The position numbers and the translations under genes were made by a program. A stretch of 64,000 nucleotides of DNA, taken from assembly GCA_013141505.1 (NCBI GenBank), contig JABFQX010000031.1:56548-120547 (forward strand), given 5' to 3'. This DNA is from Methyloglobulus sp. (GTDB taxonomy: Bacteria; Pseudomonadota; Gammaproteobacteria; Methylococcales; Methylomonadaceae). Below the pieces are notes generated by a model. The model was not told where the DNA came from and searched no databases. It was given only the letters and a program-made list of their open reading frames with translations. Shown in pieces: positions 30,922-43,588 of this stretch (its first letter is position 1; every line of letters starts with the position of its first letter).

Positions 30922-31146
30922 ATGAAACTGATTAAAATAACAACAACAGGGTTGTGGCTATTGTTTGCCCTAATGCTCACCGCCTGCGCCCCAGTACAAC
31001 CCTGGGAACGCGGCAACCTTGCCAAGCCGCAAATGGCACTTGACCCATATCCGCTGCAAAGTGCGCTCAGGGCGCATAACTATGGCAGCCGCGAGGCGGC
31101 GGCAGGCGGCAATGCCGCGCAAGGGGGCGGTTGTGGTTGTTATTAA
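30922..31146 (+). CDS. DUF4266-type mini-lipoprotein, copy 1
   Basis: Lipobox LTAC; APVQPWERGNLAKPQMALDPYPLQSALRAHNYGSREAAAGGNAAQGGGCGCY*. Confidence 0.88.
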   Translation: MKLIKITTTGLWLLFALMLTACAPVQPWERGNLAKPQMALDPYPLQSALRAHNYGSREAAAGGNAAQGGGCGCY

Positions 31147-34132
31147 ATATTCCAAAACCGTAGGGTACGCTTCGCGTACCGACGAGAAAAGGCTGGGATT
31201 TAAAAAACGGTACGCGAAGCGTACCCTACAGGCTCCAGTTGGAGAGGGCTGGGGTGAAGAGAATGCAACCAAGAATCCATTTCCTTACCTTCCGATTAGG
31301 GAAGGGAGTGTCAGGGTATCGTTACATGCCTTGACCACAGCCGCCCTGGTGTTGCCGGGCTTGTTGTCGCCGGTATCGGCCTATGCCACCGAAGGCGACG
31401 AAGTGGATTTCCAGTACAGCCATTATCAGGAAGGCGCAAGAAATATCAGTAATGGCGATTTTGTTGCAAATGGGGCGGTGGTTAAGTTAAAAAGCGCTAA
31501 CCCTATTGAAGTGGATAGCCTGCATGGCAGCGCCAGAGTAAGTTTGACCGATAGGGTCAAATTTGCTTTTAATTACATTCAGGATACCTGGGGGGGGGCT
31601 ACCCCCGTTTCGACGTTGCCAGAAGCATATGCGGGTAATAATATCCTCAATCAGAATGGAATTACCACAGGTGCGTCGCCGATTGTTGCCGTTGGCCCCT
31701 TGTTTTTGGATGCAAAATTTAACCCGATACTGGGTGAACTCACTGGCGAAACCGACCCTATTACCCTTGAAGATATTTATAAGTACACCAAAAACACCCA
31801 GCTTAGCCATACCATGGCGACCGCCTCGCCAGAAACCCGCAAGCAGGGCGATTTTAAACTCAGTTACGACTGGGACACCGCCTCTGCCAGCGTAGGCGGT
31901 GGCATTTCGGTAGAAAACGATTATGAATCCCGCTTTGGCAACGTGGGGGCGCGTTTCGATTTTAACCAGAAACAGACGAGCCTGAATGTCGATTTAAGCT
32001 ATACCAACAGCGACACCAACGCGATACTCGATCATGATTCTTATACCAATACGCAATACCTTAAAGATGATGGCATCGTCTACAGGGAACTGCCTTATGG
32101 TCAGATTGATACTTTGAAAGGTGTGGTTGACGCCAAACGTATACAAGGCAATCGCCAAGACTGGTCCACCCATCTCGGGTTGACGCAAGTCATCAACCAA
32201 GATGCCCTGTTCAGTGCTGATTTTAGTTATACCCGCAGTACCGGTTACATGGCAAACCCATACAAAGGGGTGTCCGTTATTTTTATAGACCCAGAGCAAC
32301 AAGATACTGCTCCGCCAAATGGTTATGTAGGGAATCTTAAAACGTTATTGGAACAACGGCCAGGTGTCCGTAACCAGTACAATGTCGGGGGGCGTTATGT
32401 GCAATACATTAAACCGCTGGATGCCGCCTTGCATTTCGACTACCGTTTTTCAGCCGATGATTGGGGTATCCATGCCCATACTTTTGAAGCCGATTGGGTA
32501 CAGCCTGTCGGTAGCGGCTGGACGGTGACGCCACGGGTGCGTTATTACTCGCAAGATGCCGCCAATTTTTATACCCCTTGGTTAGTGTCAGAGCAAGCGT
32601 TTTCTAAGACTGCCCTTGATGGCAATGGCAATACCATAGCATTCGGGAGTGATGGGAAAGAATATTCGCAAGTATTCGATCCAAATACCTTAGCGTTGAA
32701 TTACCTAGATTCTAAAGGTAATTTAAAACCCGCTTCCGTTAAGATCGTGACGGATAAAAATGTCTGGTTCGACCCCAAAAAATTACCGGCAAATTATTCC
32801 AGTGACCATCGTTTGTCCGGTTTCGGTACGCTTAGCGGCGGGGTAACGGTTGAAAAACAATTTGCCAAAGGCGTGACGATGGATTTGGGCTTTGAGTATT
32901 ACACCCATCAGGGCGGCTTGAAAATAGGCGGCGGAGGCGAGGGCAGCTATGCCGATTTTGATTATTGGGTAGCGAATGCGGCCTTAAAAGTCAACCTGGA
33001 GGCCTTGGCGCTGGGCGGTGGCAGCAATTCTAAAGAACACGCCGGTCATGAGCATCATAACCACGGTGTCCATGCCCCCGCCGGGGTGATGTTTGACCAC
33101 ATGTTGCCAGCGGGTAAGTTTATGGTCGGTTACCGCTATATGTGGAACAGCCAAAGCGGCAACCTGCTGAACGGCACTGGCGCGGTAAACGACGCAATGA
33201 CCAAGACGAACGGCTGCGGTGGCGATCCTTGCTATTTAGCGGCTCACAGCATGGCCATGAGCATGCACATGCTCGACTTAATGTATGCCCCGACCGACTG
33301 GCTGACTTTGATGCTGATGCCGCAGTTTACTGACATGAACATGTCCATGAGAGCACTCGATGGCGTGCGGGCTCCAGACCTAACTACCCTTAATTTGCGT
33401 GGGCATTTTGTGCACCATCTGCAAAACGAACATGAAACCGGCGGTATCGGCGATCTGGGGATGTATGCTTTATTTAAAGTGTTCGATGACGGGATGCATC
33501 ATGTCCATGCCACGGCCGGGTTAAGTGCGCCGACTGGCGATGTAGATATCCAATTCCGTAGGGCCCATCAACTCGATGGTGGCTTTATGGATTACGGGAT
33601 GCAACTGGGCAGCGGCACCTGGGATTTCAAGCCCAGCTTGACTTACACCGGCCATATCAATGATTTCTCCTGGGGCGCGCAAGCCAACGGTATTGTTCGC
33701 ATGGAAGATCACAATAAATCCGGCTACCGCTTGGGCGATATGTTCCAAGGCACGGCATGGGGTGCTTACAATTTGACCAACTGGCTGACGGCTTCCGTGC
33801 GGGGCATGTATACCGTGCAAGGTGCAATTAAAGGTCAGTTTAATGGCTCTGCGGGCGGCCAATTTATTGACCATACTACGACTGACGAACTTGGAAATGT
33901 AAACGACGTTAATAGTAGCATCCTCAAATTCGCCCCGAACGACTACTCGCAAAACTCCGGCGGACGCTACTGGGATGTCGGCTTCGGCCTAAGCGCAATG
34001 GTGCCCGGCGATGGTTTGTTAGGCGGTAACCGCGTCAGCGTGGAATGGCTGCAACCGGTCTACACTGATGTCAACGGTTACCAGCTTGACCGAGACGGCG
34101 CGTTGTCGGCGACGTGGAGCGTGGCGTTTTAA
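31133..34132 (+). CDS. DUF3570 + Phenol_MetA_deg-like fused outer-membrane protein, copy 1 (start uncertain; ORF open from 31019)
   Basis: EVDFQYSHYQEG...SADDWGIHAHTFEADW...GGLKIGGGGEGSYADFDYW, then EHHNHGVHAPAGVMFDHMLPAGKFMVGYRYMW...; C-terminal Phe. Confidence 0.8.
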   Translation: MVVIKYSKTVGYASRTDEKRLGFKKRYAKRTLQAPVGEGWGEENATKNPFPYLPIREGSVRVSLHALTTAALVLPGLLSPVSAYATEGDEVDFQYSHYQEGARNISNGDFVANGAVVKLKSANPIEVDSLHGSARVSLTDRVKFAFNYIQDTWGGATPVSTLPEAYAGNNILNQNGITTGASPIVAVGPLFLDAKFNPILGELTGETDPITLEDIYKYTKNTQLSHTMATASPETRKQGDFKLSYDWDTASASVGGGISVENDYESRFGNVGARFDFNQKQTSLNVDLSYTNSDTNAILDHDSYTNTQYLKDDGIVYRELPYGQIDTLKGVVDAKRIQGNRQDWSTHLGLTQVINQDALFSADFSYTRSTGYMANPYKGVSVIFIDPEQQDTAPPNGYVGNLKTLLEQRPGVRNQYNVGGRYVQYIKPLDAALHFDYRFSADDWGIHAHTFEADWVQPVGSGWTVTPRVRYYSQDAANFYTPWLVSEQAFSKTALDGNGNTIAFGSDGKEYSQVFDPNTLALNYLDSKGNLKPASVKIVTDKNVWFDPKKLPANYSSDHRLSGFGTLSGGVTVEKQFAKGVTMDLGFEYYTHQGGLKIGGGGEGSYADFDYWVANAALKVNLEALALGGGSNSKEHAGHEHHNHGVHAPAGVMFDHMLPAGKFMVGYRYMWNSQSGNLLNGTGAVNDAMTKTNGCGGDPCYLAAHSMAMSMHMLDLMYAPTDWLTLMLMPQFTDMNMSMRALDGVRAPDLTTLNLRGHFVHHLQNEHETGGIGDLGMYALFKVFDDGMHHVHATAGLSAPTGDVDIQFRRAHQLDGGFMDYGMQLGSGTWDFKPSLTYTGHINDFSWGAQANGIVRMEDHNKSGYRLGDMFQGTAWGAYNLTNWLTASVRGMYTVQGAIKGQFNGSAGGQFIDHTTTDELGNVNDVNSSILKFAPNDYSQNSGGRYWDVGFGLSAMVPGDGLLGGNRVSVEWLQPVYTDVNGYQLDRDGALSATWSVAF

Positions 34133-34233
34133 TGTCAATAAAGTTGTGTGCGTGGTTTGCCGTTATGTTGCCTGTTGTCGCGCTCATTTTGAAATCAATC
34201 ACCGATTATGTTTTCCTCTCTACAAGGAAGTAG
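34132..34233 (+). CDS. 33-aa hydrophobic small ORF, TAATG-coupled to copy 1
   Basis: MSIKLCAWFAVMLPVVALILKSITDYVFLSTRK*; ATG overlaps upstream stop. Confidence 0.35.
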   Translation: MSIKLCAWFAVMLPVVALILKSITDYVFLSTRK

Positions 34234-34348
34234 ACGTGCACCTCATAGCGGCGAACGCCATTCGCCGCTTTTTTTATTGCACGCATTGGGTATGCAAAAG
34301 CGAACCTTAAGCCATGTTATGGTTAACTTTTTCGTTTGGTAAAGTGTC

Positions 34349-42923: not shown

Positions 42924-43093
42924 ACAGAGGTTTTTATGAAGCCAGTTGCCTGTGTTGCAAACCTCGGCCTGTTTCAACTTTGTGGAGTGACAAACCTTGA
43001 ATACGCTAAAGTTCACAAGTGTCTCAGAGGGTAAGGTTGGTCACTTTTCCCCACATGAAACATTATTGATATGGCGTTATCAAGTTTTAACTT

Positions 43094-43221
43094 CCCTTCG
43101 GCTCCGCTCAGGGAACGTGCATTAAGCTCAGGGAACGTGCCATCAGCCCGGGGAACGCAAGCGAAAATCCCTGCCGTTCCCTTAGGGGGTTCGTTTACGT
43201 TCCCTGAGCGGAGCCGAAGGG
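43094..43221. repeat. ~130 bp palindromic element, sister of 42026-42156
   Basis: CCCTTCGGCTCCGCTCAGGGAACGTGCATTAAGCTCAGGGAACG...CGTTCCCTGAGCGGAGCCGAAGGG. Confidence 0.65.
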
Positions 43222-43357
43222 TATTGCAACTACTTAAAACATTAATTGGCCGAAGCAATGACCCAGGCTCCGACGTACCTGCAGTACCCAACAAGGGCAT
43301 AAATGGAAACGAGAACTTACCAAGAACAGATTACCTAACCCAATAAGGTGGACAACC

Positions 43358-43588
43358 ATGAGATTATTGAAACAACCGACACACACGTTATCGGCAGCCT
43401 TAATGATAGCATTAACACTAACGGCCTGCGCTCCGGTGCAACCGTGGGAGCGGGGCAACCTTGCCAAGCCACAAATGGCGTTGGATCCCTATCCGTTGCA
43501 AAGTGCATTACGGGCGCATAATTATGGCAGCCGCGAGGCGGCGGCGGGCGGCAATGCTGCACAGGGGGGTGGTTGTGGCTGTTATTAA
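43358..43588 (+). CDS. DUF4266-type mini-lipoprotein, copy 3
   Basis: LTACAPVQPWERGNLAKPQMALDPYPLQSALRAHNYGSREAAAGGNAAQGGGCGCY*. Confidence 0.88.
   Translation: MRLLKQPTHTLSAALMIALTLTACAPVQPWERGNLAKPQMALDPYPLQSALRAHNYGSREAAAGGNAAQGGGCGCY

Follow-up and report, generated by a model that had tools for sequence, protein, structure and literature searches.

Multi-copy DUF4266 lipoproteins with an invariant Cys-Gly-Cys tail in a methanotroph: candidate thiol shuttles beside methionine-rich DUF3570 fusion proteins

Candidate thiol shuttle in a Methyloglobulus genome

A stretch of 64,000 nucleotides from a Methyloglobulus sp. assembly (GCA_013141505.1, contig JABFQX010000031.1, positions 56,548 to 120,547; here called the window) encodes three copies of a small DUF4266 lipoprotein ending in GGGCGCY. 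They stand beside DUF3570 proteins that carry a methionine-rich second barrel, here called fused DUF3570. The DUF4266 feature is real, strongly selected and belongs to a known kind of system. Our preferred reading, to which we assign a probability of roughly 45%, is that DUF4266 is a lipid-tethered thiol shuttle whose Cys-Gly-Cys (CGC) end passes electrons from a TlpA-like thioredoxin to a flavinylated outer-membrane barrel. In this organism the shuttle would probably serve the reduction or uptake of a metal, predicted to be copper, for particulate methane monooxygenase (pMMO) or ammonia monooxygenase (AMO). The genome is 3.87 Mb in size, the window lies on its contig C92, and the closest named relatives of the window are Methyloglobulus and other Methylococcales.

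Purifying selection on the lipoproteins

The three lipoprotein genes are the following.

30922 to 31146, plus strand: DUF4266 lipoprotein copy 1, 74 residues, lipobox LTAC, GGGCGCY codons at about 31123 to 31143
36083 to 36307, plus strand: DUF4266 lipoprotein copy 2, 74 residues, GGGCGCY codons at about 36284 to 36304
43358 to 43588, plus strand: DUF4266 lipoprotein copy 3, 76 residues, GGGCGCY codons at about 43565 to 43585

All three match PF14086 (DUF4266) with E-values of about 1e-22 and 79 to 80 bits, the curated cut-off being 27. Each consists of a short signal peptide with a lipobox (LTAC) followed by about 50 residues that end in GGGCGCY. The mature regions of copies 1 and 3 are identical and copy 2 has two differing positions, so the initial annotation was right to describe three near-identical copies. 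It had also attributed this identity to purifying selection rather than to recent copying, and the substitution pattern bears this out. The copies differ at 22 to 26 of 150 nucleotide sites, 18 to 20 of these being third positions, and the pairwise nonsynonymous (dN) and synonymous (dS) rates (NG86) are 0.018 to 0.048 and 1.07 to 1.20, respectively, with dN/dS of 0.017 to 0.040. Because the same mature 50-mer occurs unchanged in other Methylococcales (methanotroph) assemblies at dS values of 0.96 to 1.9, the identity is old and selected; these shared peptides, together with the dS of about 1 in the window, argue against recent gene copying. The fused DUF3570 partners in the window are down to 59 to 68% mutual identity (dN 0.24 to 0.33), and the lipoprotein is therefore far more constrained than its partner.

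The tail is equally constant across the family. Homologs were searched for with the head of the protein alone, without requiring a CXC motif. All 72 DUF4266 genes in the related fused-operon loci end in GGGCGC plus one residue (Y or N), as do 27 of 27 gammaproteobacterial loci found with a hidden Markov model and two loci outside the head pattern (29/29). The functional constraint supposed earlier thus extends to 101 of 101 genes, and low conservation in homologs was not seen. The final residue is mostly Tyr in fused operons and Asn in ordinary ones. An alignment of 95 unique sequences shows no variation in GGGCGC, in the lipobox Cys or at one Met, one His and one Glu position; one additional ordinary sequence (L147) apparently lacks the His. 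Both the CXC tail of DUF4266 and the association with ApbE, thioredoxin-like proteins and DUF3570 have already been published (Meheust 2021, PMC8238504).

The genome contains 12 DUF4266 genes, 15 DUF3570 matches, 13 full-length fused DUF3570 genes and four ApbE genes. Nine DUF4266 genes are intact copies of the window type, and one, on contig C80, is of the ordinary type, with the tail GGGCGCN and a 434-residue DUF3570 protein beside it. The remaining two are decayed: the copy on C79 (L030, 12518-12847, minus strand) reads GGGRGCY, having lost the first tail Cys along with the lipobox Cys, and that on C57 (L033, about 6525-6671, minus strand) has an internal stop codon. These decayed copies show turnover inside the DUF4266 expansion. 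DUF4266 was present in 71 of 320 genomes of the class, and no other genome in that sample or among 111 genomes of the order had more than four copies; the numbers of DUF4266 and fused DUF3570 genes were the highest of all genomes sampled. Fused DUF3570 genes without an adjoining DUF4266 gene are found at 39295 in the window and on contigs C8, C49 and C65, as would be expected if the lipoproteins formed a shared pool and could stand in for one another.

The fused DUF3570 proteins

The window encodes four fused proteins.

31019 to 34132, plus strand: fused DUF3570 copy 1 with a Met/His-rich second barrel, motif DTWGGATP; start uncertain, TTG at 31331 possible
36273 to 39176, plus strand: fused DUF3570 copy 2
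39295 to 42021, plus strand: fused DUF3570 copy 3, GTG start, no DUF4266 gene of its own, candidate flavin acceptor Thr108
43461 to 46637, plus strand: fused DUF3570 copy 4, true start uncertain

In copies 1 and 4 no clear ATG precedes the signal peptide (31019-31403 and 43461-44007, respectively). Each protein consists of an N-terminal DUF3570 domain and about 350 C-terminal residues without a Pfam name. The AlphaFold2 model of the 39295 to 42021 protein contains two beta-barrels (pLDDT 82), the C-terminal one resembling the COG4313 channel 4RL8 with a TMt of 0.69. Among sequence relatives in the PDB, only a weak match to FapF was obtained.

The sequence Asp-Thr/Ser-Trp-Ser/Gly-Gly-Ala-Thr-Pro is kept in 62 of 62 fused proteins, with the acceptor Thr and the Asp invariant; in ordinary DUF3570 proteins, the first of the sites of [S/T]GA[S/T] type aligns with it. 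Flavinylation of DUF3570 at [S/T]GA[S/T] motifs has been shown by experiment elsewhere (PMC8238504). The first site reads GGAT in the four window copies and SGAT in 44 of the 62 relatives; here the second of the published sites is degenerate. Another GA[S/T]P motif, nearly invariant, lies within an insertion specific to the clade.

The two halves of the 62 fused proteins have very different Met contents, 0.8% in the N-terminal half vs 5.5% in the C-terminal half, where nine Met are invariant. In the 39295 to 42021 protein, Met residues alternate along two adjacent strands (625, 627, 629, 631 and 635; 645 and 647), with M653, M655 and M742 in addition. Since the Met of strand 2 share their face with Asp633 and the opposite face of strand 3 carries Leu, this arrangement suggests that the ladder faces the barrel lumen. 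A Cys pair (610/618) is present in 61 of 62 fused proteins. Barrels of this type with the signature HAPIGVMGDH...SYRYM also stand alone in many Gammaproteobacteria (L151-L167, L168-L180); the 12 examined have the Met ladder too and none has the Cys pair.

Operon context

In relatives, the operon order is sec3 - HEAT - sec0 - TlpA - DUF4266 - fused DUF3570 - ApbE - spermidine-synthase-like protein, sec0 and sec3 being two families of secreted proteins. The redox-related and HEAT-repeat genes of the window are listed below.

34349 to 35263, plus strand: secreted HEAT-repeat protein, a conserved operon member
35337 to 35855, plus strand: TlpA-like thioredoxin (WCGPC), proposed electron partner of DUF4266
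4739 to 7006, minus strand: DsbD, outside the operon, possible electron supplier to TlpA

Among 78 relative loci, TlpA was found in 62 and ApbE in 48; both counts are lower bounds, as contig ends cut many of the loci. The tie between DUF4266 and TlpA suspected from the window alone is thus recurrent, and the frequent occurrence of DUF4266, DUF3570 and TlpA with ApbE, mentioned in the initial annotation, also agrees with these counts. The window TlpA-like protein matches PF08534/PF00578 and not PF13899, and the annotation of the operon ApbE rests on a match at 5e-73. No ApbE match was found anywhere in the window, in line with the initial annotation; all four ApbE genes of the genome lie outside it. 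One of them, on contig C69, is 82-83% identical to the operon ApbE (the other three reach about 32%) and stands together with the spermidine-synthase-like gene. The absence from the window therefore reflects a different location of ApbE in this genome.

A 33-nt palindromic repeat (30663-30695, 35916-35948, 42891-42923 and 46764-46796) flanks the gene blocks and was considered as a shared operator. None of the genome's remaining DUF4266 loci has it and it does occur close to the C69 ApbE gene, so it reads as an interspersed repeat; L040 has three copies near 1468-2020. Between a sec0 gene and the first DUF4266 gene, a ribbon-helix-helix-like gene followed by a PIN-domain-like gene (29925-30538, plus strand) looks VapBC-like by eye. 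Some 15 kb upstream of DUF4266 copy 1 lies a gene for a heavy-metal P-type ATPase that has a single HMA domain (13840-16086, plus strand). In several gammaproteobacteria a large protein is encoded near ordinary DUF4266/DUF3570 genes, and the one tested (L188, 8141-10768, minus strand) matched the hydrazine synthase alpha middle domain at 3e-17.

Secreted proteins with a predicted N-terminal His

26592 to 27587, plus strand: secreted protein sec3, predicted mature N-terminal His, HGC motif, candidate copper binder
27857 to 28306, plus strand: secreted beta-sandwich protein sec0, predicted mature N-terminal His
29040 to 29534, plus strand: second sec0, a tandem duplicate of the sec0 at 27857 to 28306 (91-92% identical DNA)
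42336 to 42875, plus strand: divergent sec0 member

Signal cleavage of sec0 and sec3 was judged by pattern. In sec0, a His follows the predicted signal peptide, with a His-Cys after it and another His near the C-terminus. Among 112 sequences, the three His are all present in 70, all absent in 23 and mixed in 19, i.e. present or absent together in 93. Such joint presence and loss is the pattern that would be expected from a single metal site. The structure model of sec0 is a confident beta-sandwich, for which no copper protein was among the best structural matches, the closest being collagen-binding and PPC-like domains. In sec3, the first His, an HGC motif and a Trp stand out, the His and Trp being invariant, and these features are reminiscent of the copper-binding YcnI/DUF1775 domain. 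No Pfam match and no sequence relative in the PDB were found for sec3.

Distribution among methane and ammonia oxidisers

Fused loci were searched for over a collection of 85,488 species, and the best 80 of 292 relatives were considered, so that weaker-scoring hosts fall outside the scope. The 78 best-scoring loci belong to Methylococcales, to uncultured or unclassified proteobacteria, or to Nitrosomonas/Nitrosomonadaceae. The fused form is thus concentrated in methanotrophs and a few ammonia oxidisers. In the class sample, matches to the C-terminal domain above 400 bits occurred in three of the 320 genomes, all within the nine that have PmoB/AmoB (hypergeometric probability about 2e-5, calculated by hand); two of the three are not independent, as one is the window genome and the other comes from its family. 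Two genomes of the family of G185 were compared: both have PmoB and one has the fused protein. A phage origin of the locus was considered and dropped, as no relative was found among viral contigs.

Proposed mechanism and alternatives

A role of DUF4266 in redox cycling within a hybrid thioredoxin-like/flavin system fed by DsbD has been suggested before (PMC8238504), and C-terminal CXC shuttles have a known example in the flavin-dependent thiol oxidase Erv2 (PMC4019985). In our model, DsbD would reduce the periplasmic TlpA-like thioredoxin, which would hand electrons to the C-terminal CGC of the flexible, lipid-anchored DUF4266 by thiol-disulfide exchange. ApbE would attach flavin mononucleotide (FMN) to the Thr of DTW[S/G]GATP in the outer-membrane DUF3570 barrel, and this FMN would accept the electrons from the CGC. 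The lipid anchor, the glycine-rich segment and the terminal CGC fit such a tethered shuttle. In the fused clade, the most likely purpose of the system would be to reduce and handle copper for pMMO or AMO, because of the fusion to a Met-ladder barrel and the secreted proteins whose three His vary together as those of a single metal site would. The direction of electron flow, the site at which the CGC acts, flavinylation in this organism and copper as the metal are all predictions of the model. Its most elaborate form appears doubtful to us, namely a dedicated outer-membrane machine for copper reduction and uptake serving both monooxygenases, in which a thioredoxin - CGC-lipoprotein - FMN relay delivers Cu(I) through the methionine-lined barrel, expanded within one genus of methanotrophs to a dozen copies that can replace one another.

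Several observations weigh against the shuttle or its link to copper. The N-terminal DUF3570 half is nearly free of Cys (0.05%), which would leave the CGC two options: direct reduction of the flavin, or action on the Met-barrel Cys pair, a pair that the Methylotuvimicrobium lineage lacks. The window copies carry GGAT where the published motif is [S/T]GA[S/T]. For some gammaproteobacterial DUF4266 genes, no ApbE was found within the approximately 12 kb fetched and Dxx[ST]SAS replaces [ST]GAS, yet the tail is retained. Neither sec0 nor sec3 matched a known copper family, and no recognisable or consistent copper genes were seen among the listed neighbour families of the stand-alone Met barrels. 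Six of the nine PmoB genomes in the class sample have no fused protein, and this protein is therefore not required for the enzyme. Finally, the mechanism in the fused clade is built on the parts present, their conservation and their context, and its redox, metal and flavin roles are predicted.

Two other explanations, both of which we regard as improbable though worth weighing, share much of this evidence. A CXC pair is able to bind Cu(I). DUF4266 could therefore itself be a metal carrier, its tail Cys and perhaps the invariant Met and His binding Cu(I) and exchanging it with the Met-rich barrel, with TlpA merely keeping the thiols reduced. The Met ladder of the partner and the His-initial secreted neighbours would suit this role; however, the tail and the invariant Met also occur in remote DUF4266 genes with a DUF3570 partner that lacks the Met barrel, so that copper could explain the tail family-wide only if it is used more broadly than observed. 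It is similarly hard to favour a general extracytoplasmic electron route based on flavin, of the sort put forward for DUF3570 clusters, that would end at iron or some other acceptor, with copper incidental in this clade. Such a route would agree with the wide occurrence of DUF4266 in the class and with the VIT1 iron transporters of some published clusters (PMC8238504), but only the present variant has the Met-ladder fusion and the His-initial secreted neighbours and is concentrated in oxidisers of methane and ammonia.

MNIO enzymes act on Cys residues of small peptides, and the initial annotation had offered the tail as a possible substrate for modification. This idea, which would make DUF4266 a modified, metallophore-like peptide, is very improbable, since the single DUF692 (MbnB/TglH/ChrH) gene of the genome (L203) lies on contig C34, unlinked to DUF4266, and no fetched DUF4266 locus contains one.

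To our knowledge, it is not settled how copper is acquired and reduced for pMMO in methanotrophs with no known methanobactin production. With its experimentally precedented flavin site, thiol relay and methionine-rich outer-membrane barrel, the operon is a concrete and testable candidate for this supply under the shuttle model, which also offers a mechanistic role for the CXC tail of DUF4266.

Comparison with known systems

The window locus shares with the DUF4266/DUF3570/thioredoxin-like/ApbE (DsbD) clusters of Meheust (PMC8238504) the protein families, the CXC tail and the thioredoxin-like neighbour; a flavinylation-like motif is kept, though as GGAT in the window copies. ApbE adjacency is common to most relatives, whereas in the window genome ApbE is detached, and as it is missing from the window cluster, the locus is a variant of that system and not a standard member. 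It further differs in the fusion of DUF3570 to a Met-rich second barrel, the TlpA type of its thioredoxin, the extra conserved genes (HEAT, sec0, sec3 and spermidine-synthase-like), the up to 12 lipoprotein copies and the degenerate second site. What is new is the fused variant with its conserved operon, carried by Methylococcales and by a few ammonia oxidisers. Literature searches for the operon in methanotrophs gave nothing specific, and the searchable literature appears to have no description of a fused, multi-copy variant in methane oxidisers that leans towards copper.

In Erv2 (PMC4019985), a CXC disulfide near the C-terminus relays electrons between a thiol substrate and the flavin enzyme core, much as proposed here for DUF4266. 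The proteins are non-homologous and the likeness is one of analogy only: Erv2 is one chain with FAD, whereas here the CXC is on a separate polypeptide and covalent FMN is expected. Like YcnI/DUF1775 and other histidine-brace copper proteins (PMC8424229), sec0 and sec3 begin with His after predicted cleavage, and sec3 has the invariant Trp; unlike them, they have no Pfam DUF1775 match, sec0 has a beta-sandwich fold, and copper binding is putative. The predicted fold of the C-terminal barrel is similar to that of the COG4313 channel (PDB 4RL8), from which it is set apart by the Met ladder and the fusion to DUF3570.

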